NCBI GenBank assembly: GCA_037576195.1
Contig: CM075101.1
Span: forward strand, 49,352,001 to 49,416,000
Direction: 5' to 3'
Length of the DNA stretch: 64,000 nt
Source: Phytoseiulus persimilis
Lineage: Eukaryota; Arthropoda; Arachnida; Mesostigmata; Phytoseiidae
Made by a program: the position numbers and the translations under genes. Each line of letters starts with the position of its first letter. Position 1 is the stretch's first letter. The notes beneath the pieces were generated by a model. That model saw only the letters and a list, made by a program, of their open reading frames with translations. It searched no databases and was not told the DNA's origin. Below are positions 9,246 through 54,050 of the stretch, piece after piece.

Positions 9246-9477
9246 TGAGTACTTCTTCCAACGGAGCTGACATTCCGGGAGGCTGCTTCCCGGCACTGTG
9301 CCTCCTCCAACTTGCCAAAGCGTGCGAATGTTCACAGATGGTACGTTTGTTATGCTCATTGACGACACAACGTAGATCACGGTTGACGTGCAAATACCAC
9401 TCAGTTTCGCAGTCGTCTGTCGCGAGCCGGCGTAATCAGGTCCGGCGTCCTCCTGGAAGCGCTTCTCCAACTTCAAC

Positions 9478-10666
9478 ATGGCCCTGAGACTCCAGAACGA
9501 AAACACTCTCCATGATCGCACAGCCACGAAATCAAGGCATACCGCAGCCGAGAAAGCTACATCCCAAGGAAAACTTCTCGTGGTTTGTGATGAGAATGTG
9601 GGGAAACCCGTCCAAAGATCCTCCGAAGAACTTGAGGCGTGCGAACAGCCCATTCCTAATCGAGTCGAAAGGCCAAGAACTCAGAACGAAATCGGGCCCG
9701 ATAACCCGCCCCCCCCGCCAAACGTTGAAGATATTGACGCTGACGACAGTGAATACCTTGAATTCTGTTCTGACTACGTCAAACACATCTACGATCATCT
9801 GTTCAAGAACGAGGCTCTGAGCCCGGTGGAGGTGGATTTCCTTAAGAAATATCCTGAGTTGAGTCCCAGAATGAGGAAGATGCTCATCGAATGGCTCGTG
9901 TCGCTCCAGAGCAGGTTCAGACTCCTGCAGGATACATTGATGTTGTCAGTTTCAATAATGGATCGAACGCTCACGGCGCATCGCTTCAAAGTCAATCGGG
10001 CGAATTTCCAACTTTTGGGTAAGTGCCGGAGGAATTCGCCAAGAGCTTCCCTTCCTACGCGACAATTGAGCTGTCGAACCACTTCGGTCTGATAGCTTGT
10101 ATGACTGTATTACAGGAGCAACTTGCCTGTGGATAGCCTCAAAATACGAGGAGATGTATTGTCCGTCTGTGAGGGACTTCGTGTACATGTGCGCCGACAG
10201 CTACACTTGCCTGGAGTTTCGAGAAATGGAGACCAGGATTTTAACCACGCTCGGATTTGAGTTTTCGAAACCGATAAGCTCTCACTTCCTCCGAAGATTT
10301 TCGAAAGCGGGCGGAGGAGAGTTCAAAACGCACACAGCTGCCAAGTACTTGATCGAGCTGTCTCTGTATAGCTACGAGCTCGCGCACTGCCTCCCGTCGC
10401 TGATCGCTGCTTCGGCACTTTTTGTCGCGGGTAGAGCGACCGGTGTGATCGTTTGGGATGAAACTATGGAGTTTTATAGTCGATACAGATCAAAGACCCT
10501 CAAACCTGTTGCACTCAAAATGGCGCAAATCGCTGCGGGTGTACAAAAAGACGCTCACTTGAAAACGACTTTGCAAAAATACTCTTGCGAGAAATTTTAT
10601 ATGGTACCCACGTTGTTCACGGCAAAGCTCCTGGATGAACTTTTCCCGAGCGGGGGAACTGCGTAG
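9478..10666 (+). CDS. CycB: G2/mitotic-specific cyclin B
   Basis: B-type cyclins activate CDK1 at entry to mitosis. Exons 9478-10018 and 10116-10666 join in phase and give 363 residues. The N-terminus MALRLQN resembles the MALR start of vertebrate cyclin B1. The cyclin box (about 120-245) carries MRKMLIEWLVSLQ, FRLLQDTLMLSVSIMDR, IASKYEEMYCP and the second-fold start SSHFLRRFSKAGG. The only intron falls between LLG and ATCLW. The protein is shorter than usual and its N-terminal 100 residues contain neither an RxxL destruction box nor a KEN motif in this model, so an upstream exon could be missing or degradation signals may have diverged. The start ATG is supported by a homologous ATG in the decayed copy at 7719. 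Confidence 0.9.
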
Positions 10667-21118: not shown

Positions 21119-22083
21119 GAAATTATCGTAACAAACCCGACGTATGAGCTGCCAGGGGACAGTAAATTATGCCAGATTCGACGCATCCAAAGCTCAAAAA
21201 CTATTTATAGTACGAACCGGTTCGGGCGCTTAACCTCTGGAAGCGATAGATTTGATAACGTGTAATCTTCGATGAATTCCGTAGAACATCAACGTAGCAT
21301 ACCGGGAGATGGATGTCTAGTGGACTTTGGAATCTGACCTCGTGCTCCCGCGGAGCACGGAAAGTATCGTGGAATTCTCGAGATTTTGTGCCGAAACGAC
21401 AGCTTTGTCCGGTCTCTCAGCTCGTATCGACAGCAGAGTTCTCCGATTTTCGAATGTTATCCCCGCTATCCAGACCCAATCATTCTGAGACTCTCATCAG
21501 TGGAAGGAATCATTGGGGCTCCGGTTGCTGGATCGCTTCGCCCCGATTCACTTCGCAGAATCTCACTCGAAACGTAGGCCTCAATCTCACGGCCGGGCCG
21601 GAGGTGAAGGTTCCCGCCGAATGCATTCTCGGTGACTTTGCACTCTTGGACCGGTCGCAAATCCCTTTGGTGAGTCATTAGCGCTGCGTCCACGTTTCAG
21701 TTGCGATAGCTGCCCTTTCCGCGGCGCTTCTTAAAGCAGAGCGCTTAGGTTTCGTGTCATTGAAACCAGGAACAGGGAAAACTGTGAGTCCTTCTCTTTT
21801 ACGGCGCGGAGGGTCGCCGTTGGCTGGCTTCACGTCGGTCCGGTTCTTTCTCTATCGCCCATCAAACGATCGACACTAGTGGAGATGAAGCTTGACCCGT
21901 TCTGCGGGGGTTGGCGGATGCATGGCAACTCCGTTTTCAGAGGAGGAAGTTTATCTGGAGCCAGTGGCATTCCTCAGCTTGCTCGCACTCCAACATCTCG
22001 TGCTAGTACTGCAGTACCTCCAGGCGGTTTCCGTACTCAGAGCTTACCTATTTTGTTATCTTTCCAGTGGTGCACACGTCAAA
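21119..22083 (+). other. upstream region and 5' leader of perilipin
   Basis: No certain coding exon. The acceptor CTTTCCAG at about 22061-22068 precedes the perilipin ATG, so an untranslated upstream exon is expected, possibly around 21850-22030. Confidence 0.4.
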
Positions 22084-23181
22084 ATGGTTGCCGACACTCA
22101 ACAAGTTCACAGTGAGTTCGTGACGAGGGTCTCGTCTCTGCCCACGGTGGAAGCAGCTCTTGAGATCGCGATGAGTTCCTACGCCAAGCTCAAAGACGCC
22201 TCCCCGGCGCCCATCAAGGCCGTGATGGAAGTTGGAGAGAAAACGACCAACATGGCGCTGTCGACTTCGCAGCCCATCCTGAACAAGCTGCAGGGCCCGA
22301 TCCAGTTTGTCGACAGTTTCGCTTGCCAAGGTCTCGACCGGGTGGAGCAGACCGTGCCCGCGGTGAAGGAGACCCCGGACAAGATCATCTCGGACGTGAA
22401 GCAGTACGGAGCCGAAAAGGTCAGCGCCGTGGTCGACTACGGCAACCAGAAGTTGCAGCAGTTCGGTCTCGGAGCCGTGACTCCCGAGCGATTGGGGGAA
22501 TATCGTGAACAGCTCGTGAGCTATGCCACAGTAGCCCTGACGGCCGCGGAGGACGTTCTGGACTCTCATCTCGCGTCGGCTGGCGCTCAGGTACCGATCC
22601 TCGAGGGATCATCCAGTGGAGATATCCGCACCCGAGTCGAGCACGTCACCACCAAAGCCCGTCTGTGCGTCTCTCACCACACGACGAGTCGTTTTCTAGC
22701 CGCTCAAAAGTACGCTTCCGACGGTGTCGACCGGGTGCTCGAGGCAGTGCAGGTGATCCGCGCCCTGAAAACCAACGTTCAGGAGGGAAAGTCGGTTCAG
22801 GCAATCGCGCAGGAGCTGAAGTTCGAATGGCTCTCCAAGCTGCTCGAAGAGGCGAAGGACAAGCCGGCGACTCAGCAAGCGTTGTTCGTTGCTCAGGCAG
22901 CTGCTCGCGAAGCTCAGGATGCTCTGAACAAGGCCTCGGGCGAAGTGAAGGCCAAAGTGAACGACGCCTACTCGACCGTGCTCACCCGCGCCGGGGAACT
23001 GAACTCTTACCTCCAAAACATCTCCACGGCCCAGCTCAGTACCTCGGTGTTGTCGACCATCCAGGATCGGGCTCAGAATCTCCAGAAACTCATCCAGCAA
23101 CTCACCGGTCTCAACCTCAAACAGTATCTCCCCGAGATCCGAGCTCTCGAACAAAGTGAGCCAGCGAATGCCGGCGATTGA
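22084..23181 (+). CDS. Lsd: perilipin / lipid storage droplet surface-binding protein
   Basis: PAT-family proteins coat cytosolic lipid droplets and control lipase access. The single coding exon encodes 365 residues. The start is the first Met after a splice acceptor (MVADTQQVHSEFV). The N-terminal third is PAT-like: RVSSLPTVEAALEIAMSSY, then SPAPIKAVMEVGEKTTNMAL and PILNKLQGPIQFVDSFACQG with LDRVEQTVPAVKETPDKII. The remainder is amphipathic helical (11-mer-like Ala/Gln/Val-rich repeats), as expected for droplet binding. An AATAAA at 23442-23447 is the likely 3' end. Assignment to Lsd-1 or Lsd-2 type is not made. The segment around 22591-22700 looks like a possible intron but the phases fail, so it is kept as coding. 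Confidence 0.85.
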   Translation: MVADTQQVHSEFVTRVSSLPTVEAALEIAMSSYAKLKDASPAPIKAVMEVGEKTTNMALSTSQPILNKLQGPIQFVDSFACQGLDRVEQTVPAVKETPDKIISDVKQYGAEKVSAVVDYGNQKLQQFGLGAVTPERLGEYREQLVSYATVALTAAEDVLDSHLASAGAQVPILEGSSSGDIRTRVEHVTTKARLCVSHHTTSRFLAAQKYASDGVDRVLEAVQVIRALKTNVQEGKSVQAIAQELKFEWLSKLLEEAKDKPATQQALFVAQAAAREAQDALNKASGEVKAKVNDAYSTVLTRAGELNSYLQNISTAQLSTSVLSTIQDRAQNLQKLIQQLTGLNLKQYLPEIRALEQSEPANAGD

Positions 23182-33245: not shown

Positions 33246-34727
33246 TGAGAGGTTTCACGTAGTTTCTATCCGAAATCACGAGCTCCTCAAAGTGCGCGTT
33301 CACTTACGCTCATGAATGAAGTCGAATACCTGTAAAAAAATCGAGTGCTCAATCCAAAACTCTCCTCCGCACCTGGGTGAGAAGAATGTCCCACTCAATG
33401 GGACGAATGATGGTGAAGCGTTGGTGCCAAGAGGTTCAATTCGAACCATTCTTCTTTCGTTTTGCACTCCGAGTATATTTCATAGCAGAGCTCACAAGTA
33501 TTCGATTGATGACCGCGACCCTAGGCAAGAGGCTCAGTGGAATTGCCGCAGTTTCAGGGCAGCTACCGAACATCGGCCCAGAAGTCATTCGGTCGAGGAA
33601 CAGCCTGCTATATTCGGCTCAGCTATATCTGTTCCCAACGTTTTTTTCAAGCAAAACGACACTCCGAGCGCACGTTAACAGACCTGGGCGTGATCGTATA
33701 TAAATCGTGTGAGAATGATCATTCTCGGCGGAATCGAGGCCACGGCGGATTAGTGGAACGTTCACACCTCTCCTTCAACTCCGTCCCTGAAATGACGATT
33801 CCAGGGACGGAAAAACTCTGATGGCGCGAAAGTTGACCATGAGGAAGTTCCACGTGTTATGCTGGTAACTGATGCTGATACTCGGAAAATTTTCAGCATG
33901 ATCAGACGAACTAGGGGCTCAACTGTCGGTCGACGTTTATTTGGATAGGATTGACGTCTCCTGCACCGTTCCCAAGTCCAACAGCTTTATCGATCTCCCC
34001 ATGGTGTCCATGACTCCTCAGGGATTCCGCACCTGTTCCGGCTGATAGGCGGTCACGGCTGCAGCAATCAATTTCCTCCAACAGCGGGTATGCTACGAGG
34101 AAAACGGTGGTCAGTGTTGTTTCCTCGCACGGAACGCAGCCGAGAGCCGCCCAAGACCTCGTCTCGCTTCAGCAGAAACCATCGTCAGCAACATTTCCCC
34201 ACCTGATGTCACGATCCTCGATTTCCGGCTCAAGACTTACGTGTATAAGTTCCCTTCACTCCGTTCTCGTGGAGCGGGAATCCCATCCGGTTGCTTCGTT
34301 CCAAGAGGGCGGTGATTCCCGCTCTCCCGTTCCGAGAACGGGACCACGATCACTGATGAAGAATTCCTCAACGCTCGCGAGGCTGACAGTCGCACGTTGA
34401 GAACAACAATCACTGTCTCATTATGGAGGAGGATACGGCCCAAGGTGCGTTTTAATTGCGTTTCCTTCCAAACTCCCGCAGTCGCAGTGATGCTCGTCCT
34501 TCCGAAAGTGATCCTGAGAGTGTTCTCCGACTCGGTGTTGCAGCCCGATCATATTGACCCACCGAGAAGTCCCATAACGAGCCCAATCAATAATTCTCTC
34601 ACAGAGACGCATACTCTAACAATGAGCTTTGCTATAATCGGGAGACGGCTACTGAAAGCTTTTCGATCTGTTATGAGCTCATCAATTTCCGCTGGAACGA
34701 AATTGAGCCGCTCGTAAATCAGCTCAA
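33246..34727. other. intergenic upstream of MARCH6
   Basis: No coding exon, RNA gene or repeat was recognised. It presumably includes the MARCH6 promoter. Confidence 0.4.
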
Positions 34728-37700
34728 ATGTCGATCGAGGGTCTGGAAGGAATCAGGATGGAGCCTTGGCGCAGTGCATGGGGTCCGTCCAGAAGGCTTC
34801 TCGCTATCACCTGTTCGGGCTACGTAGCTTTCACGGGATCGATGAGAGAAGCGACTGCTCCCGATGTTTGCAGATTCCTCGTAGGTTTCTTGTTCAGCGG
34901 AGATCTCGATCTCGAGTGTTCATCTTCGACCAATGTATTGCTATGGGAGGTGGGAAACTTCGTCTCCGTCGAGATACGCCGAACGCTCTCTCGAGACTGT
35001 CTCCACAAACATCCGCGAGATAAACCAGCTCGGAGATTGGGAATCGTCAGGGATGGGGATTTCTCGCAGTCACACGGGTCGATTTCACGGGCAACGCGAA
35101 AATCGATTGACAGGATATGTCGCGGCACTTTTCGTGAACGAGTAAACTTCCAGCTAATTAGCTCAATTCTCGATTCCGAATTCTTTTTCTCAGACATATG
35201 TCGGGTGTGCCGCACCGAGGCGGCCGCCGACCGGCCCCTGTACTACCCTTGCATCTGCACGGGCTCCATAAAATTCATCCATCAGGACTGCCTTCTACAA
35301 TGGCTCCGGTACTCGAAAAAAGAATACTGCGAACTATGCAATCACAAGTTCTCGTTCATGCCAATATACTCCCCGGACATGCCGAAGCGGCTGCCGACGA
35401 AAGATATCGTGCACGGTCTCCTCGGAAGTGTGGGAACGGCTCTCCGATGCTGGTTGCATTACACCCTCGTGAGTCTTGGATCTGAGCGCCGATTGATCAG
35501 GGGAAAAAGGAGGGATAACTCCACATTTGAGTGCCATGAGCTCACTTGTCGTTCATGCAGGTTTGGATCGCGTGGCTCCTGGTTGTCCCACTGATAGCGG
35601 CTCGGATTTACAAGTGCATTTTTGCTTTGTCGTTTTCTTCTTTGTTAACCCTGCCGCTCGACATTTTGTCAACGGAAAACGTCGTCGAGGACGGACTCAA
35701 CGGCTCCGTGATTGTTATATCATCGCTGTGTTTCTTCATTGCAATCGTGTGGCTCCGAGAGCAAATCATTCATGGTGGTGCGCCGGAGTGGCTTGAGCCC
35801 GCACCTCGCGGCCAAGAGGAACGTGAAGCTGCCGACGCGAGGGACGACGGTCTTTTGATCGAAGTCAACGGGAACGACATTCCCCCCCTCGTCTTGAACG
35901 ATGCTGAATTCGTAGCGAACGTGGAACAGCCCCCACCAGAACAGGTACAGCCTGACCCGGAAAGTCGGTCGAAGCGTCTCATCGTTATTCGAAGTCTCGT
36001 TCCTCGATGTTCAGCCGAATCCTCCGCTCGTTCGGTGGATTCGACGCTTTTCGTTAACAGTTCTGTTTGACCAAGTGAACGCTTTCCAGGCGCCACCTCA
36101 ACAACAGGAGCAACAACAGAATGCACAGCCACAGAACGGTATCCCCGCCGCCGCAGCTGTTGAGCAGCAACATGCCGGTGGGGACGATCCAATCATCAAC
36201 GATAACTGGAGAGCCTTCGATTTCCAAGCGGTTGCCCGTCAAGCAGTTCTCCCAAACAACGCCGAGGTGGACGATCAAGTACGCGTTCTCCGATCCGATC
36301 TCATGCGGGAAGTCCTGGTCGACTCCGCTCGAACAAACTTTGGTCATGACTCAGCTCCTTTCAGGGCAACTGGAATCAGGACTGGGAGCGGGGTGAAGAC
36401 ATCACCTGGCAGCGTCTTCTGGGATTGGACGGGTCCCTGGTATTCTTGGAGCACATGTTCTGGGTGCTGTCCCTGAACACTCTTTTCATGGTAGCATTCG
36501 CCCTCATCCCGTACTCCATCGGCGAGAGTTTCGAGAGTCTACTGGGGTTGACGAAGTCTCTCGAAAATTTCGTTTTCCGCGGCTTCCTCCTGGCGATTGT
36601 CGGGTTAGTTGAAGACGATGTTCTGGGTAGGCGTGGGTCTCACTGTTCCGAGGGCGCATTCTCGAACGCCATGAGGGTTGTTGTCGTATTCCGGGAATCG
36701 AACAAGCACGTCGAGCTCGCTACTGAAACCATCTGTGGTTGAGCTCGGGAGGAACCACTGAAACGATACTCTAGTCTCATTCGTTGCGATCGTTCCAGCT
36801 ACGTGGTTTTCGCGTTCTTCCTGATGCTGGTGTATATGCTCTTCCAAGGAACTCGGTTCCGTAAGGCACGACGCATCATCGGCCTTTGCTACCTCATCAT
36901 CAAGGTCTCTCTGCTCACGATCGCCGAGGTGGGATTGTTCCCAGTCATGTGCGGAGCTTGGCTCAACATCTGCTCCATGGAGCTTTTCGGGAACTCCCTC
37001 CCCTCGATGCAAAATCAAATACGAGCGGCCCCTTTCACGAACGTGTTCCTGCACTGGTTGATTGGGATGATCTTCATTTACTACTTCGCATTCTTCGGGT
37101 TCATGCTGCGCGAAGTCGTTCGCCCAGGTGTTCTATGGTTCCACCAAAACATCAACGATCCGGATTTTCATCCGATCCAGGTTAAGCTCAAGTGTTCACT
37201 TTTTTGAAGCGAATGGCGTCCCCGTTTCACTGTGCGAACCACGTTGTAGACGGCGAGGATTTACAATCGGCTTCTGTCTTCGATCTGCAGGAAATGATCC
37301 AGATGACGGTCATGGTTCACGCCAGACGGTCGCTCATTTCGTTGGTTGTCTTCGGTACGGCGATCCTCCTGATGGTCTGGGTTCCTCTGCGCATAATGAA
37401 GCGCATGGTCCCCTCGCTGATCCCGTACAACATTTCGGTGCCGACTGCCGATATGCCCACGACGGAACTCTCGATGGAGCTCATGATTCTTCAGCTCGTA
37501 CTCCCGGCGCTCCTCGAACAAGGACACACGAAACAGTTCGTGAAATGGTAATCCACGCTTGAGCGAGCTCGCTCCTTCCATCGATGTGGTGCGACGTCTG
37601 AACTCTGAAACTCGAACTCATACCCCTCTTCCAGGTGCGTGAAGCATTGGTGTCGAGGAGTTGCTTCGGTCCTCGGGATCCGGAGCTATCTCCTGGGCGA

Positions 37701-38913
37701 TAAGCCAGACGATGAAGAATACGTCGAGCCCCAAGAGCAGCCTCGTGAGTTAGCGGCAGTCCATCAGGCGATGGCGAACGCCCAGGTTATCCCTCCGCAT
37801 CAGCCTTACGTGAGAACGTCGTATTTCCCGTTGAGGATCGCCGCACTGCTCGTCTGCGTGTGCATCACATTGAGCCTCGTCAGCCTGATCGTACTCACGG
37901 TTCCCGTGTCCATCGGGAAGTGGGTTCTGAAAATGGCTATATCAAAGGTCAAACTTCACGAGTTCTACACTGTGGGCATCGGACTCTACGTGTGCTGGGT
38001 CTGCATCCGAGGAATTTCTCTCGCTAGGAGTTGGCTTCCGAAGGGCTGGAACATAATCTACCAGTCGCTCTACAATTCCTCCGTCATCGGACTCAAGGCT
38101 CTTGTCGTATGCACCATGCTAATCGGAGTCGTTCCGTTGCTCATTGGTGAGGAGAAACTCCGTGGAGTCTATGCGGCTCGGGGTTGCCCTTGATATCCAA
38201 AACAGCGGCCACATACATGGAGAGCCAGCTTCGGAATTCATATATACGTTCAACTCGTTTGTGATTGCAGGTATCCATTTTGATTTGATTGTCATGATTC
38301 CTCTTCGTGTGCCCGTGGATGCAACTCCCGTCATTTCTCTACCACATTGTTGGGTCTTAGGGGTATTCCATACGAAGCTCATCGGCGCTCTAACCTTGAT
38401 GGGACCCAACTGGTGGCTCAAGAATTCCCTCGAACAGGTACACGAATCAGTAGGGCTCTTCAGTCCCGCGGTCCGATGTCGGACCCTCGATATTGCCCAG
38501 CATCCAGACGGAGGGTTTGGCTGAGATTCTCAGAATATTCCCTCACGTTCCAGGTTTACCAGGAAGGCTTGAGGAATATGAGCCTGGTTCGGATTTTCCG
38601 CGACATCGTCTTTCCTTGCGTAGCCGTTTTAGGTCTTTCGTTATGCGTACCGTATATCTTCGTACATTCTGTGCTGGCGCGGTTTGTTTCACCTGAAACG
38701 GTCCATTTGGCTCACCGGAGAATCTATCCGTCGCTACTGATCGTGAGCTTCTTCAGCTTCTACGCCGTATTCCAGTGGAGGCAATTCCGAAGACTCTACG
38801 AGCATATTCGCAATGACAAGTATCTCGTCGGAAGGCGTCTAGTGAATTACGAGAGACAGCAGAGAGAGCAACAACGGCATCAAGAACAGCAACAAATGCA
38901 AACGGCCCAATAG
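34728..38913 (+). CDS. MARCHF6: E3 ubiquitin ligase MARCH6/TEB4 (Doa10 homologue)
   Basis: This multi-spanning ligase of the ER and nuclear envelope works in ER-associated degradation, including of sterol-synthesis enzymes. Exons: 34728-34740, 35194-35468, 35561-35944, 36090-36278, 36365-36603, 36799-37180, 37291-37547, 37635-38146, 38270-38437 and 38554-38913, about 925 residues (human 910). A 13-nt first exon encodes MSIE and runs into DICRVC, matching the human MDTAEEDICRVC start. The RING-CH C4HC3 pattern is complete (CRVC, YPCICTGSIKFIHQDC, CELC). Conserved membrane segments follow: WLREQIIHGGAPEWLE, LLGLDGSLVFLEHMFWVLSL, VVRPGVLWFHQNINDPDF, LELMILQLVLPALLEQGHT-like, LTLMGPNWWLK, and the C-terminal YEHIRNDKYLVGRRLVNYER. 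The join of 38146 to 38270 is out of phase by one base, at a run of five T. The donors after 34740 (GTCTGG) and in the 36090 exon are weak or ambiguous. Confidence 0.93.
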
Positions 38914-44563: not shown

Positions 44564-46706
44564 ATCTCCGAAACTTCGAGCACAGCTGTACATAGATATG
44601 TATCATAGCCTTCTCAGTTCAACCAGCTCCGAATAGTTTGTCGGAATCTGTAGGGCGGCTTTCAACGTCGGCGATGGAAAAAAGAATCCTTGACGCTCGT
44701 GATCAGAAGCCCTTGTTCTCTATGAGTTCTCCCCGAAGGGGGAAGAGGGAAAGGGAGGTCGGACCATGAAATCTGAATCTGAGAGCATCTCGGTATGTCG
44801 CTTTGCTAGTGACATTGATCTCAAAAGCGGAGGTCGCAGCAAAAAATTTCGGGAACCATTGAAAGGTGGGGCATTCACTTCGGAGTGAAAGATTCAGATC
44901 TCTGTCGGAAGGGGATAAGATCGAATGCGATGTCTCGGAACCCGAGTTCGAACACAGCATTGCGGAATGACAGCCCCTTGGTCTCCGATCCGTGGGTGGC
45001 AGGGGCCTTTATTGATTCCAGTGAAAAATGGGGGTCATGAGAACTGGTACCTAAACACAGATGTGCCGTTATGGATCGCAACCCGATTTCAGTTTGGTGA
45101 AAGTATACAGGAAAGGTTTTCAGGCTTTTCATATGTACCACGCTGTGCGGGATATCTAGGCCTACGATATTTCAAAAGAATCCTCAAATCGGTGATTTTC
45201 TTGGGATGAGACGTTTCGTGTTCGTTTTGCTCTCACGGATATGGGAAAGATCAGCTGCGATCTCACGCCCCCAGGTTTGCACCCCCTGACTGCGACGTCC
45301 ATCAGCTTTGCGCCCGGTGCACGTGCCTCCTTCATCGCCCCCCCCCCCCCCTCTGCCGTCCTTTGGAACGGTCGAGGAAACACCAGGGTTTCGTAAGTGT
45401 GCGGCTCCGCCATCAAAAATGGGAAGAGGAATAGCATCTCCTTTCTCTGGGGTCCCGTCGTCACTCTGTCAACTTCGAGTCCTAGTCGCTACAGGGAGTT
45501 ATAACTCCCACAGGCGAGACGATGGAAACATGTACGGACCGAGGTATGGGAAGTCTTCGTAGCAGATGACATTGCCTGCGGAATGCTGCGGAAATGTTCG
45601 GAAGGCTTTGTGAGGGAGGGAGGAGGAAATCCTTAACGGATCTTGAAATTCGATTTGTACGATGAGGGGGCACACGCCGACAACATCGAATAACCCGAGT
45701 CGCTTTTGCTTTCGCACTCAGTATAGTATTCGCTCCATGTATCCGCTGGAAACATCGATATTCATCAGCAGGAGCACGTATATTTTAGGGGGTCAAAGTT
45801 AATCGTCAGCTTCAGGGCTGGCTCAATGAGAGAACTCGGGTTGGAAAGGCCGAACCGATCGGGGCCCATCTAACGTTATACTCACATTTCTTCATGGGTA
45901 ATGAATCGGTCTTGAGCGGTTCGTGCGCGCGCGAGCAGTTCATCCAGACTTAGACCCGTTGCTGTGAAGGGTATCGTCACTGACGCTGATCCTTCACACG
46001 AGTATCCGTTTGAACTTGTCTTGAAGGGCCCTCCCAAGTTGCTTTGAAGCCTGCGACCCGAGGGTCAGATCGCGGAGGAGCCTCACCCACAACAGACGAA
46101 ATGGAAGAAAACCCCTGGAAACGGCGGCCAACGAGATGGGAACACGCCCGTGCCGAAAGATGGACCGATCAATGTATTCCCGACATAAAACAGTGTTGCG
46201 TGAGCCCACACGGCGGCTGTACCTACCAAACCACCCAGGTACTCACCAGACGCGATTTCTGAGCATACCTTGTTGAGATACAAATCGTTTCATCACCAAT
46301 GTGTAAACTGTGTCGCATAGGGGCAGAAGATACGGTCTGGCTGACCACAGTCCATCCCAGGCCTTGTTGGAAAATTGTCGAACAGTGCTTCAAACTTAAG
46401 CCCCATCACCACGAAAATCGGGTGCATCATGGACATGAAGGCGTTTCTAATCAAAGGGAGAGAGGACAGAATCAGCCGAATCCAGCAACCGACCACAGAA
46501 CCTGATCGAGCGCTTAAGACTAACCGGCACGGCAATGAGGACCGGCCTCCAACGAGAAAAGCACCGACACCGGCCTAGAATGTGGATTTGGTAAACCGGC
46601 CTACTGGAAGGACATAACGGACTTGAGATTGATCGCGAGATTCTGCTCGTGGAGCCCGCACGGCGGGGTCAAGGCTAGAACCTAGGAGGTTCAATGTGAC
46701 AGGATA
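44564..46706. other. 2.1-kb intergenic region; C14 run
   Basis: No gene was recognised. A run of 14 C lies at 45338-45351. A short shared word, GAGCCCRCACGGCGG, occurs at about 46203 and 46650; I could not assign it to an element. Confidence 0.4.
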
Positions 46707-46760
46707 CAGGGTGGTCATCGTAGGTCGGGAAGCTTTTCACTCTCTCTTCTTTTGCTCATG

Positions 46761-47701
46761 ACTCGGTGAAAAATCATCCGATCCTGGATTTATTTGGCGT
46801 TCGTTAGCTTGAAGGATGACGCATCCTTTTCTTCCCGACTCTCGTGAATCGGCGAGAAATTGAATATCGTGAATCGACTCAAAGATTGCCTTTTTTTATT
46901 ATCAACTCCTGTCGAAAAACTGATCGACAAACTTCTGGAGTCGACCGATCGAATTCGGTCGCCCGACAACTCCAGATTTCTCGCTCAGGATCTGTGAGAA
47001 GGTCGAACGATCGTCTCAACCTTGACGTCAAGAGCTGACCTCTTGAAGGAACGCGTCCCCGATGCATTCGCCCTTTATCTCCTCCGGGAAGCTGAATTCG
47101 GAAGATTTCCCGATGGCAGAAAGTTTTCAGATTGGTCCAAACTCCCCAGCTTGAGAGTTGCTGGGTCGATCCGGTCACATTCTCTCTCTTCCAAAAATCG
47201 AGCTCCTCCAGTTTTTCTGTCCTGGGAAGGAAAACTGACTGTGCTCGCTTTTCGGGCTGGGGAAAAAAACGATTGTATCGAGCCGTAAACTTTCTTCTCG
47301 GGTAGTTTGGACCATTCTCAGAACTTTTCGTCATAGAAAAATTTCTCGAATTCGGCTTCCCTGAGGAGTTACGGGCCGAAATGCAAAGAGGACGCGATCT
47401 CGTCAGGAGGTCGATCTTAACGCCAAGGTTGAAACGATCGTTCGTCTTCCTCACAGATTCCGAGCTAGAAATCTAGAGTTGCCGGGCGTTTGAGCAGCCT
47501 CCTATCCTGCGTCGACTTCGGTACTTCCGAATTTGATACGTCGACTTCAGATGTTTCTCGATCAGTTTTTTGAGGAAACTTGGAACTGAAGCTTAGCAAT
47601 CTTCGAGTCGATTTACTGAATTAAATTTTTCACCGATTCAAGAGAAAATGATGCGTCATCGTTCCAGCTCTCGAACGCCGAAAAAATTCCAGGATCGGAT
47701 G
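46761..47701. mobile_element. palindromic (foldback/MITE-like) element nested in the transposon's left arm
   Basis: The two halves are inverted copies around about 47215. For example ATCATCCGATCCTGG near 46771 pairs with CCAGGATCGGATGA near 47690, and GAACGATCGTCTCAACCTTG near 47005 pairs with CAAGGTTGAAACGATCGTTC near 47423. Compared with the right arm of the host transposon, the palindrome is an insertion. It encodes nothing recognisable. Transcripts would form a hairpin of over 400 bp. Confidence 0.75.
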
Positions 47702-48197
47702 ACACTGCCCGATAAAAAAAAAAAAAGTCGCGTAACAAAGAAGCTGAAACCTAGGTTGGGGTAAGTCGAGGTCGTAGATTCCGAATTTCCAAACCGTTTC
47801 CTCGGATTCGCCCTAGTTTTCCTGTTATTCCAATTTTTCGGATTTGCGTGTTTTTTTTTTCTGTTGGATTTTTTATCTCTGCCCACGAGTGAGCCAGACT
47901 CATGAAAATTTGGGAGCATGTAGAAATATAATCGAACTACCCGTTGTAGAAAATTTCGTGCGATTCGGAGCCACGGTCTCTGAGCTAGGAGAGATCGAAC
48001 GTCAATTTTCGTCGGAGAACACCGAAAAGTTTCCTCTTCTTCAGCCAATGACTAAAAAAGTATCGTTCCCACAACCAACTTCCGTTGAGCTCTCTGATGG
48101 CAATTTTATCCACAAACATTTTGAGACAGGGTTGAGCGTGATCGGATGATCCATCCAGTTTTTATTCGCAAAAAAATGGACACAAGGAAATCTCCTT

Positions 48198-49199
48198 GTG
48201 CGCATGGGTCTGCCACGATACGACGCCAGCGAGTGGCGCCTCTTTCTCGGCAGTTCGAAGAGGGGCTTGAAGTGCGTCCTCCTGCACAACGGCAACCAGT
48301 ACGCTTCGATTCCGCTCGGTCATCCCACTAGACCACGTGAGGACTACGACGCCATCGCGTTTGCGTTGGAGAAGATCAAATACGAGGAGCACCAATGGCC
48401 TGTTTGTGGCGACTTGAAGATGGTCTCGATTCTTTTGGGCCAACAAGCCGGTTACACCGAATTCCCGTGCTGCTTGTGTCTTCGGGACAGCCGAGCGGAT
48501 GACGAACATTGGATTCGAACGATTTGGCCGTCAAGCGGATTTCTGAAACCCGGGCAGCCCAACGTGCTCAGAGACGCTTTGGTTCCGACGGAAAAAATCA
48601 TTCTCCCACCGCTGCATATCAAATTGGGTCTGATGAAACAGTTCGTCAAAGCATTGGGCAAACACGGTTCATGTTTCAACTACATCATGCGCAAGCTACC
48701 CGCTGTGAGCATTCAGAAGCTTCAGGCGGGGGTTTTATATGGACCCGAAATCCGGAAGCTCATCGTCGACCCTGTTTTCATTGACGCAATGAAAAATCGA
48801 GCAGCCAAAGCTCGGCGGTCATTCGTTCTGGTCGTTCAAAATTTCCTTGGGAACACGAGCGCTGAAAACTACGTACAACTCGTCAAGAGCATGCTCGTGA
48901 GCTTTCGAGTCCTAGGGTGTCGGATGAGCATCAAGATGCACTATCTACACAGCCATCTCGGACGCTTCCCCGAAAATCTGGGTGCTGTTAGTGATGAACA
49001 AGGAGGTAGGTTCCATGAAGATATAGCGACGATGGAAGAGAGGTACCAGGGAAGATGGGACGTACACATGATTGCCCACCACTGTTGGACCGTTATACGG
49101 GATGACCCGGAAAGGCCCCACTCGAGGCAGTCCCTCACGAGATGTTTTGCTGGTTCCGACGAGTTTCATTCACTCTCGTTTTTCCTGCATCAAAACTGA
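48198..49199 (+). CDS. transposon-borne protein, possible RNase H-like transposase
   Basis: 333 residues in one exon, intact. It matches a protein type I recall as very common in arthropod genomes and usually annotated as uncharacterised. Marks are GDLKMVSILLGQQAGYTEFP with CCLC and a WDSR-like DSR, LPPLHIKLGLMKQFVKAL, FLGNTSAENYVQLV, MHYLHSHLGRFPENLGAVSD, then GGRFHEDIATMEERYQGRWD and HHCWTVIRDD. The Asp of GDLK, the Cys pair and the SDE...RFHED block could be the acidic residues and zinc site of a DDE-type transposase; this is inference. Its place between long inverted repeats supports a transposition role. The N-terminus looks short against family memory, so the element may be 5'-truncated in coding sequence. 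Confidence 0.7.
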   Translation: MRMGLPRYDASEWRLFLGSSKRGLKCVLLHNGNQYASIPLGHPTRPREDYDAIAFALEKIKYEEHQWPVCGDLKMVSILLGQQAGYTEFPCCLCLRDSRADDEHWIRTIWPSSGFLKPGQPNVLRDALVPTEKIILPPLHIKLGLMKQFVKALGKHGSCFNYIMRKLPAVSIQKLQAGVLYGPEIRKLIVDPVFIDAMKNRAAKARRSFVLVVQNFLGNTSAENYVQLVKSMLVSFRVLGCRMSIKMHYLHSHLGRFPENLGAVSDEQGGRFHEDIATMEERYQGRWDVHMIAHHCWTVIRDDPERPHSRQSLTRCFAGSDEFHSLSFFLHQN

Positions 49200-49710
49200 A
49201 TGGCTTGTCGTATCACGCTCAAATTTTTCTTAAAATGTTCGCGATTGAATTCTCTATCGAAAAGCTCCCCGGAAGTTGGCTGTGTGGACTATACTTTTCA
49301 CGTTTTCGGCGGGAGAAGGGGCCACTTTCCGCTGCTCGTCGACGAAATTTGACTTTTGATTTCTTCTAGCTCACTGACCGTGGCTCCGAATGGCACGAAA
49401 TTTTCACCAGAGATAGTTCTCCTATCGGTCCACATACTCCACAGATTTTCGCAGATCTGGCTCGCTTAGGAGCAGAGATAAAAAATCCAACATGGAAAAA
49501 ATCACGAAAATCCGAAAAATCAAAATAACAAAAAACTAGAGCGAATCCGAGGAAACGGTTAACAGATTCGGAATCTACGACCTCCGTTTACCCCATCCTA
49601 GGTGTCAGCTTCCTTGTCACGTTCTTACTGTCGGGCAGTGTGAATCTTCACCGACCTATTAGCAAAAGAAGAGAGAGTAAGAAAGTTCCCGACATAAGAT
49701 GACCACCCTG

Positions 49711-51720
49711 CAGCCCTCCTCTTTTTTTCTTTTTGTCAACATTGTCAGGAGTTGAAGGGAATCTTTTCGGACCCCGGGGATAGAACCCATTTTGTCAACC
49801 CGGGGTTGTGGTGTCACCACTAAAACCTCCCTTCTCCACGCCGGTGACCGCTGGGCAGTCGAGGAAAGCGAAGCTTCCACGTTCAATATCACTTCCGCGC
49901 GGTCATCCGAGACTCATTTAAGATTGCGAATGTCTGATTTCTTTCTCGCTAGTTCTCTCTCATGCTATGAAGGGCGCTAGGCCTGTCCGCGAAATTGGTG
50001 TCGAGTCCCAGTCGCTGCAATCTCAACTTGAGGAGATGGTCTTTCTTTCAGAGGATGCATTCTACCTTCCTTGAGATTCTGTTCCAGGTACTTTCTGCCA
50101 ATGTCAGCATTTCGCATACGAGCGCTGGGGCCGAAGTCAGTCCAAGGCTCCTCCTACTCGGCTCGAGCGCTTTGCATGAGAATACAGTATGCTCGACGTC
50201 ATCTTCTTCGCCCGAGCTGCACAGGATGCAGATTGTCCGGTGAGGCCGGCTTGAATGTACACTCCGAGGTATCTCGCTGACTTCTGCAGTTGAATCTCAT
50301 GTCCCTGGAGCCAAATGCTCGGTGCTCTGTCAGTTTTCTTCTTGATAAGGATGATCGCCTCTGTCTTTTCGGGTGCGAGCTCCAGGCTGCTGAGAAGCAT
50401 CCAGCGGGGAATGACCGCCAGGGCGGCATCCGCTATCTTCTCAAGGTCCACAATTGTCCTTTCGAGCACTTTCAAGGCCAGGTCGTCCGCTTATCCGATC
50501 CTCGTGGCTCCCTGTGGCATTTTAGCTTGAAGAACATCGTCATACGCGATATTCCACAGGGTCGGTCCGAGGACCGATCCCTGGGGAACTCCCGCCGTCA
50601 TCTCGTGCAGACTGCCTTCCTCATCTTGGACATGTCGACAGCTGAGGTAGGACCCTAAAATCCTGCGAAGGTACGGGGACACTTCTTTTGTCCTGAGGCT
50701 GTCATGGATGACTTTCCATCTTATCGAGTTGAATGCGTTTCGTACATCTAGCAATATGATGATGCATTGTCTTCTTGTCCTGTACGTGGTGTTCATTCCC
50801 GCGTGGACTATCTCGCTGACTCTTCTGATGGCCGACATGGTGGAGCGACTTCTCCGGAAACCAAATCGATTCTCCGAAAACTTTTGTCCTTCCTCGAGCT
50901 TTTCCTGTAACCTCCGGTTGGCGATCATCTCTACTCCCTTAGCTATCGTGCTAAGCGAGCAGATCGGTCGGTAATTGTCTCTTTTCCCAGGTTTGGGGAT
51001 CAGGACAAAACTATAAATATTTTCGTGACTTCTCCGGGGATTCCATTTGGGCCCGGGGCTTTTCTAGATGCTATTCTATCGGCTGCTACTTCCACTTCCG
51101 CGGCGGTGACTTTTGGGATTTCTCCATCCTGGATAGAAAATTATTCTCTGCCGAATCCTGACGCTCTCAGGAAAAGAGCGGTCACCGGTCCTTGAACGAT
51201 CTCGGTGGTCATCCTGAGTCTCTTCTGTCCGATCTTCTCCCTCACTATCTTATATGGGAGTCCCCAAATGTCTTCTCTGACGCTATTAGTGAGTTCTCTC
51301 TACTTATCTCTTTTGGCTTTGAGGATCACTCTCCTATATGTCTGCTTCGTCTCGGTGTATTTCGTGTGATAATCTCGAGCTTCGTCTTCGGTTGTGCTTG
51401 TATTCCTTCTGCATCGGATATAGCATCTTCTGGCTCGGTTACATGCCTTCCTCAGCTTGGCGACTTCATCATTCAACCAGTAGACTGGTTTCCTTTCAGC
51501 ATTGCGGAGGGGTCTCCTCGAAGAAGATTTTTCGCATGCTGTCTTAAGAATGTTAATTATAACATCTTCATCAATGGGTTGTTTCTGCTCCGTTATGCGT
51601 TTGCATTCTTGATCTATGTACTCGGTGAGTTAGGTTCTGTCAAGCTCATCGATTCGCTTGTTCACTTTTTATTCGAATTTAAACAAAATTTAACCTAATT
51701 CGCCATCGGTTTTGCGGGAC
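49711..51720 (-). mobile_element. decayed R1-clade non-LTR retrotransposon (LINE) fragment
   Basis: On the minus strand the reverse transcriptase region reads KPVYWLNDEVAKLRKACNRA (about 51480), then ENRFGFRRSRSTMSAIRRVS, LLDVRNAFNSIRWKV and AGVPQGSVLGPTLWNIAYDD (50928-50500), then ADDLALKVLERTI and ELAPEKTEAIILI with YLGVYI (50495-50137). These are motifs of the R1/LOA type. The tyrosine of the YADD active site is a stop codon (TAA at 50493-50491), and another stop interrupts RDK*RELT near 51300. The 3' part (about 49711-49990) is non-coding and resembles a LINE 3' UTR. It cannot encode an active enzyme. Confidence 0.85.
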
Positions 51721-51879
51721 TGGTTCTTCTCGAGTTTCTGTCGTAATACTGACTGCGGGCCCCCTTCTCGGGTCGTGACTCAATGAGGACTCTCCGTGAG
51801 TCGCATCCTTACTATACATAATCGGCATAGTCTGTCAGTTTGTCCGCACTCCGTCGAGTATATATGGGGGTGATTCCGG

Positions 51880-52450
51880 TACCAATCCGAACACACTCTT
51901 CCGAGTCTGGAGAATTTATTCCGGAACCGATCTGACCATACTTTTCAAAACCTGGAGGGGGTGATTTCAGGACCGATCTGACCATTACTTTCCAACTCTG
52001 GAGGGGTGATCCCGGGACCAATCTGCGCATTACTTTCCAACTCTGGAGGGGTGATTCCGGGACCAATCTGACCATTACTTTCCAACTCTGGAGGGGTGAT
52101 CCCGGGACCAATCTGACCATTACTTCCCAACTATGGAGGGCTGATCCCGGGACTAATTTGGGCATTACTTTCCAACTCTGGAGGGGTGATTCCGGGACCA
52201 ATCTGACCATACTTTTCCAACTCTGGAGGGGTGATTCCGGGACCGATCTGAGCATTTCTTTTCCAACTCTGGAGGGGTGATTCCGAGACCAATCTGACCA
52301 TACTTTTCCAACTCTGGAGGTGTGATTCCGAGGCCAATCTGCCCATACTTTTCCAACTTTGGAGGGGTGATTCCGGGACCAATCTGACCATTACTTACCA
52401 ACTCTGGAGAGGTAATTCCGGGACCAATCTGACCATACATTTCAAAACCA
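51880..52450. repeat. 45-bp minisatellite, about 12 units
   Basis: Units repeat every 45 bp (for example tGGAGGGGTGA at 51999, 52044 and 52089), consensus GGAGGGGTGATTCCGGGACC then AATCTGACCATTACTTTCCA ACTCT. Since 45 is a multiple of three and the unit lacks stops in at least two minus-strand frames, the array stays open there and predicts 15-residue peptide repeats (NGQIGPGITPPELES or MVRLVPGSPLQSWKV). No promoter or flanking exon supports translation. Confidence 0.9.
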
Positions 52451-53114: not shown

Positions 53115-53782
53115 TTCCCTGGGAATAGGGGTCGCAAATACCCGGGTATCAGGAACCGGGTCCGTACCCGGTTCCAGACTCGGGTGAACCCGGGTATATG
53201 AGGCGGGTTCTACGATGGCCGCCTACCGAATTGGTTCCAGGGTCGACCCGACCATACTTTTTGGAGTCTATCGAGGTGATCCCAAGTCTGGAGGGTTGAT
53301 TCCGGGACCAATCTGGCCATTACTTTTCAACTCTGGAAGAGTGATTCCGAGACCAATCTGACCATCACTGTCCAACTCTGGAGGGGTGATTCCGGGACCA
53401 ATCTGAGCATTACTTCCCAACTCTGGAGGGGTGATTCCGGGACCAATCTGACAATTACTTTTCAACTCTGGAGGGGTGATTCCGGGACCAATCTGGCCAT
53501 TACTTTTCAACTCTGGAGGAGCGATTCCGAGACCAATCTGAGCATTACTGTCCAACTCTGGAGGGTTTATTCCGGAATCACTCCTCCAGAGTTGGGAAGG
53601 AATGGCCAGATTGGATTCGGAATCACTCCTCCAGACTTGGGATCACCTCGATAGACTCCAGAAAGTATGGTCGGGTCGACCCCGGAATCAATTCGGTAGG
53701 CGGCCATCGTAGAACCCGCTTCATATACCCGGGTGCGGAACCGGGTATCATACCCGGTTCTGCGACCCCTACCTGGGAAGTC
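53115..53782. mobile_element. foldback-like element: about 168-bp inverted repeats around the same 45-bp minisatellite
   Basis: The left arm (53115 to about 53284) and right arm (about 53613-53782) are reverse complements of each other. Shared landmarks are GGGGTCGCA, the ACCCGGGTAT / ATACCCGGGT words, GATGGCCGCCTACCGAATTG against CAATTCGGTAGGCGGCCATC, GGGTCGACC, and GTCTATCGAGGTGATCCCAA against its inverse. Between them are about seven 45-bp units of the type also found at 51880-52450. The architecture, inverted arms plus internal tandem repeats, is like Foldback elements. I see no clear target-site duplication. Confidence 0.8.
53294..53600. repeat. 45-bp minisatellite inside the foldback-like element, about 7 units
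   Basis: Same unit as the array at 51.9-52.4 kb, in the same orientation (TCTGGAGGGGTGATTCCGGG then ACCAATCTG). The last unit turns into the right inverted arm near 53580-53640, where an inverted half-unit reads GGAATCACTCCTCCAGA. Confidence 0.85.
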
Positions 53783-54050
53783 GGATCTCTCTATTTCACC
53801 GGACTTAGGAGTAGTCGTTTTTTCGACCTCAAGGGAGCTCGAATTCGCGGCAGCACGGAGATCCGGCAAAGATTCGCGAAACGTGTCCAGACCTGCTCAT
53901 GCCCTTCGCATGCGGTGATCCAGCAGTTCTGGCTAGGGTTTCATCGGGTTCGGCTGGTGTTCAGGAGTTCTATTAGAATTGAGAAACCGAATCGAAAAAG
54001 AACTCGGGTGTTCACATTTTTCTAAAAACTTTGTCATGAAAAAACTTTCG

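Follow-up and report, generated by a model that had tools for sequence, protein, structure and literature searches.

Passages of PMC4079192 describe Chapaev transposons as bounded by CAC...GTG ends and Chapaev3 elements as generating TWA duplications between an A and a T. They give the Garfield transposase 556 amino acids (aa), two exons and the motifs C(2)C, LH and H(4)H, and file Chapaev3 (Garfield, Merrow and Conan) under CMC (PMC4079192). An excerpt of PMC4411706 puts Chapaev3 in the Transib superfamily and attributes to it an N-terminal Chapa zinc domain. Here we analyzed a 64,000-nucleotide window of the genome of the mite Phytoseiulus persimilis (C1:49352001-49416000; all positions below without a contig name are those of this window), in which a first-pass annotation had described a 3-kb stretch with an orphan open reading frame (ORF) as one intact-looking DNA transposon. 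We are highly confident that this stretch is an internally deleted Chapaev3 element, nested in a palindromic Tc1/mariner-type miniature inverted-repeat transposable element (MITE) and presumably mobilized in trans by a full-length transposase. The nested pair fits ordinary transposons, the inner family matching a group already in print (PMC4079192; PMC4411706), so that the orphan family, proposed as a newly identified transposase family, fits one that has been described before; no description of this particular element was found in the open-licence PMC literature. The genome searched comprised 181 Mb in 127 contigs, and as the searches score the best candidates only, copy counts are lower bounds.

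The outer element is interrupted by insertion of the inner one. The repeat search of the window returned an outer terminal pair of only 75 bp (46702-46776/49641-49715), a palindrome contained in 46748-47702 and, apart from these, a set that flanks the ORF (47702-48190/49164-49641). With the left arm aligned to the two right-hand pieces, the right arm of the palindrome reaches 47702 and resumes at 49641, and the stretch in between (47703-49640) begins with CACTGCCCGA, finishes with TCGGGCAGTG and has TGA on either side. Outer and inner sequences share only two 11-bp matches (E 0.83). When the flanks were joined minus the inner stretch and one TGA, 48 alignments crossed the junction, representing 35 distinct arms at 21 places (overlapping loci merged), the window's own left arm included; thus, the outer arm is uninterrupted at this point at 20 places besides the window. 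We found no inner match of at least 60 bp in 25 of the 28 outer loci (19 of the 21 distinct places) and no outer match of at least 60 bp in 28 of the 30 ORF loci, defined as the ORF match with 1.5 kb added at either end (L032 and L037 represent the same place). The two exceptions are the window (L009) and L026, whose outer piece lies ~250 bp outside the inner element. Among the 30 inner-repeat loci, outer matches occur in three, i.e., the window (L039), L054 and L059, the latter two with pieces of ~80-100 bp at a distance of over 1.2 kb from the inner element. A second copy of the 3-kb composite was not seen in the loci examined; at a single place in the C2:50751996 region (L004/L071), the two families met independently, at a different position. 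The outer copy residing there holds inner-element-like arms folded back on themselves.

The left part of the outer element, made up of its left arm and centre plus the greater part of the right arm, occupies 46707-47702 on the plus strand, and the final 70 bp of that right arm, separated by the inner insertion, lie at 49641-49710 (plus strand). The left target duplication is TA (46705-46706), its right counterpart reading CA (49711-49712). Both strict ends are present in 10 of the 20 outer loci fetched, with 699 to 1073 bp between them, and TA flanks both sides in nine of these ten; TA being its own reverse complement, it could equally be part of the outer repeat. The terminal 23-mer, with at most 2 mismatches, occurs in the genome 240 times forward and 249 times in reverse, while the pattern read backwards gives 0 and 0. 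Among three longer outer loci (L089-L091), inspection by eye revealed a DDE_3-type frame in one, L090 (C2:22401706-22404134), and no recognisable transposase in the frames of at least 80 codons of L089 and L091. L090 measures 2429 bp, has the ends of the outer element, TA flanks and inverted repeats of ~0.6 kb (~96% identity across two aligned pieces of 547 and 53 columns); both its ends are 72-81% identical in pieces to the outer left part. Its open 423-codon frame scores 34.4 bits against Pfam DDE_3 (cut-off 28.6), matches Sleeping Beauty (E 3e-12) and shows a spacing of 39 residues from the second acidic residue to the third. Given the TA flanks, the ends and arms of L090 and its DDE_3 frame, we regard the outer element as most likely a non-autonomous Tc1/mariner-type MITE, and L090 as a likely source of activity for its family. 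It resembles IS630/Tc1/mariner DD39D elements in the TA target and the inverted ends, and through its partner in the DDE_3 domain and the spacing of 39, a likeness of features and not of position in a tree; unlike in those elements, the inverted repeats of L090 extend over ~0.6 kb and the MITE is almost wholly palindromic.

The inner element (47703-49640, plus strand) is 1938 bp long and carries a ~488-bp 5' inverted repeat (47703-48190, plus strand), which is 75% identical over 461 columns to a ~477-bp 3' repeat (49164-49640, minus strand) overlapping the last codons of the ORF. The TGA triplets at 47700-47702 and 49641-49643 are the left and right copies of the 3-bp duplication from its insertion, and outer copies run through the site. 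We examined the flanks of 20 inner copies, picked for both repeats near the ends (L012, L029 and L031 were dropped, one end wanting). Sixteen of them have CACTG on the left and C[A/T][A/G]TG on the right, a terminus being eroded in L016, L023, L024 and L038. Identical 3-bp flanks were found in 11 of the 16 copies with both termini, ten of them TWA and one the TGA of the window, and in 9/10 TWA copies the duplication is preceded by A and followed by T. The true ends of the family are hence CACTG...CAGTG with TWA duplications, and not those to which the first-pass annotation had linked it. At L068 (C1:6297921-6304335), four copies of the inner ORF start plus 5' repeat are spaced at ~1.82-kb steps; the region resembles a tandem array of a single element.

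The window ORF (48204-49199, plus strand), announced as a full 333-residue frame, is present but counts 331 codons. We found 2182 related proteins at E<=0.001, and 7 of the 10 organism-named entries among the 120 relatives listed are arthropod, the others being of a tunicate, a frog and a bacterial metagenome-assembled genome, which agrees with the anticipated wide distribution in arthropods. A length of 540-580 aa is typical (79 of the 120 listed), and an intron of 88-94 bp is present in all six longer genomic copies examined. Across 59 full-length relatives (set A1), D260, D314, E509 and E512 are each invariant (59/59), as are C(2)C, LH and the second His of H(4)H, whereas the first His occurs in 57/59; the Cys-rich N-terminus is likewise conserved. 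The predicted fold of a relative matches solved structures of the RAG1 core and the HzTransib transposase at 10-15% identity, with no sequence-profile match. In RAG1, the enzyme responsible for cutting antibody genes, the zinc site is itself of the C-x2-C, H-x4-H kind, and its catalytic Glu lies in an S-E-x-x-E stretch. The invariant D, D and E, the Cys pair and the RAG1/Transib-like fold bear out the suggestion that the orphan ORF represents a DDE-type nuclease. The family was also rightly called uncharacterised: the window ORF gave no match in Pfam and none at cut-off in NCBIfam, five relatives had none reaching the Pfam cut-off, and no curated model of either database was seen to reach it in the members scanned (cut-offs were compared for 1/59 A1 members). 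Stray Pfam matches in A1, i.e., SQS_PSY in 1/59 (E 0.00067) and three other families in single members (E 0.027-0.035), were taken for chance.

We thus observe that the inner family shares with Chapaev3 the CAC...GTG ends, the TWA duplication inside A...T, a transposase of ~556-560 aa, the two exons of Garfield and Merrow and the C(2)C, LH and H(4)H motifs, an assignment to class by published features and not by a tree with reference proteins. Its Cys-rich N-terminus may correspond to the Chapa domain. It differs in its host, a mesostigmatan mite, and perhaps in its inverted repeats of ~480 bp, and the window copy differs in being internally deleted, in the loss of the first catalytic Asp and in its own TGA duplication. 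CACTA, initially suspected because of the C(2)C motif and the CACTG ends, was dropped for the Chapaev3 hallmarks, and the animal CACTA elements described in PMC4298943 differ from the inner element.

The ORF encodes the C-terminal catalytic part of a Chapaev3-type transposase, its first residue corresponding approximately to residue 245 of the full-length relative P0011. On the plus strand, it retains the second conserved Asp (48411-48413), the C(2)C (48468-48479), LH (48612-48617) and H(4)H (48939-48956) motifs and the conserved Glu of the S-E/D-E-Q-G motif (48996-48998), which is most likely the catalytic one. Residue 16 (48249-48251, plus strand) is Gly in place of the first catalytic Asp of all 59 A1 relatives, and Gly also replaces the next invariant Glu, 3 residues beyond the retained one; these two are among the 9 of 71 A1-invariant positions covered at which the window ORF differs. 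At the internal-deletion junction (48187-48190, plus strand), ~555 bp are missing in comparison with the 2.49-kb copy L014; judged by coordinates, the lost segment comprises what L014 retains of exon 1, the intron and the beginning of exon 2. The truncation, the internal deletion and the substituted invariant residues rule out an intact gene, full-length family members having ~560 aa, and the window copy is, judged by its sequence, probably dead. Its deletion breakpoints are common to L013, L023, L026 and L038, with L032 close (484/1047), and two further deletion types recur (L010/L011 and L021/L024/L033/L034). That one deletion is found at several sites suggests that these copies moved in trans. 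N-terminal coding sequence persists elsewhere: L048 (C2:4861729 region) and L049 (C3:16808915 region) match residues 1-215 of full-length P0006 and keep the intron, the matches of L010 and L011 to its N-terminal part are limited to residues 1-57, and L015 covers residues 9-48 and 59-123.

That the stretch is a single element, with the orphan ORF as the transposase belonging to the CAGGGTGGTCATC ends and long arms, is hardly credible. The ends are present as claimed (CAGGGTGGTCATC at 46707 and GATGACCACCCTG at 49710), and the ORF does sit between them and between long inverted repeats (the ORF-flanking pair at E 2e-99, reported as ~400-bp arms), yet these repeats do not belong to the CAGGGTGG element, whose outer-end match is only 75 bp because the rest of its right arm sits at 47277-47702, beyond the ORF element. 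Outer arms are absent at 28/30 ORF loci, an observation that the first-pass annotation had itself named as refuting its proposal, and the inner sequence is absent at 25/28 outer loci; moreover, the outer arm continues through the junction at 20 other places, TGA is duplicated there, and the relative with outer ends encodes a different transposase, DDE_3. The empty-site alignment rules out one element with CAGGG ends. The biochemical reading of the first-pass annotation is thus good, while its linkage of ends and its notion of intactness are wrong. Survival of a 331-codon open frame could also suggest a host gene, i.e., a domesticated transposase under selection and not a dead copy, but the changes at 9/71 family-invariant positions, the first Asp among them, and the identical deletion in four other copies at other loci make this exceedingly improbable.

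It is also unlikely, if somewhat less so, that the inner element represents another CMC or Transib-superfamily group (CACTA/EnSpm, Chapaev proper or Transib) or an undescribed sister group. The proteins of CACTA and of Transib are of other sizes, and their targets of other lengths. In favor of another group, the RAG1/Transib-like fold is wider than Chapaev3, the Chapaev3 placing draws on published features, and the passages of PMC4079192 ascribe the CAC...GTG ends and the three motifs to Chapaev in general; on the other hand, TWA duplications with A/T flanks, ~560 aa and two exons match Garfield and Merrow of Chapaev3 as presented there. Several observations weigh against a nested, trans-mobilized Chapaev3 element. 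Membership in Chapaev3 is judged by published features, and searches of PDB sequences with the window ORF and with profile A1 found neither RAG1 nor Transib. The flanks differ in 5 of the 16 copies with both termini (L010, L026, L028, L033 and L034). The window's own duplication is TGA and not TWA, with A and not T as the next base, and this copy fits the Chapaev3 target rule in duplication length only; the unoccupied site, as read from the window's own left arm, is A-TGA-T, a target that would obey the A...T rule, though with its middle base off the TWA consensus. One of nine full-length queries, P0092, extends the window match as far as residue 169 and thereby into the 5' repeat, which leaves some doubt about where precisely the coding remnant ends.

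From the observed nesting, ends, duplications, shared deletion, family motifs and predicted fold, we infer the following course of events, in which the action in trans, the catalytic roles and the order of cuts are our reconstruction. The palindromic non-autonomous Tc1/mariner-type MITE, with CAGGGTGGTCATC ends and a TA target, would have inserted first, probably mobilized by a DDE_3 transposase like that of L090, as their common ends and arms suggest. Later, the internally deleted Chapaev3 element with CACTGCCCGA ends would have entered the right arm of the MITE, duplicating TGA. This copy keeps the catalytic part of the transposase gene only and probably cannot act by itself, because it has lost the N-terminal part with the putative zinc domain and carries Gly for the first catalytic Asp. 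A full-length transposase encoded elsewhere may recognize the long inverted repeats of the deleted copy, and its predicted RAG1/Transib-like DDE active site would cut the ends and join them to an A-TWA-T-like target.

The N-terminal part of the family provides a further, rather doubtful lead, namely that its Cys-rich domain might be homologous to the arthropod ZAD (zf-AD) of C2H2 transcription factors. Pfam zf-AD weakly matches 24/59 full-length proteins (E<=0.05, best 0.0022) and 7/10 N-terminal fragments (E<=1, best 0.00029), with scores shown of 15.0-18.2 bits vs. a cut-off of 28, and it matched 0/8 control shuffles of one fragment in which every Cys was fixed. Among the same 10 fragments, FYVE matches two (best E 0.0051) and Zn_ribbon_12 three (best 0.016), so a generic zinc-finger resemblance is possible. 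The search of PDB with profile A3 found no ZAD structure, which speaks neither for nor against the idea. In the open-licence PMC literature, PMC7397244 contains 'zad' and 'Chapaev' once each, and the other papers listed lack 'Chapaev'. If true, the most abundant insect class of transcription factors would be heir to a domain of a RAG1-related transposon, or the reverse.

As for the rest of the window, a frame at 50491-51063 (minus strand) resembles, by eye, a fragment of a non-LTR reverse transcriptase. Frames at 51812-52390 (minus strand) and 53480-54025 (plus strand), also noted by eye, consist of a repeated short phrase, e.g., WSRNHPSRVGK, and are probably chance frames in a diverged repeat, tandem or dispersed. 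Host genes include a cyclin-like gene (9436-10666) and a RING-CH membrane ligase-like gene (34707-38913), both recognized by eye, and a perilipin gene (21922-23178; homologues with Pfam PF03036), the frame of which has 11 relatives, two of them named, from Galendromus occidentalis (79%) and Varroa jacobsoni (67%), consistent with a mesostigmatan host near the Phytoseiidae.

The locus illustrates that two nested transposons can look like one large novel element. Through our analysis, a large protein family that had no name acquires a likely one, along with its true ends and a mechanism, and the confident predicted model supports the publications that place Chapaev3 next to Transib and RAG1. Many animal proteins now listed as 'uncharacterized' could be annotated as Chapaev3-type transposases.
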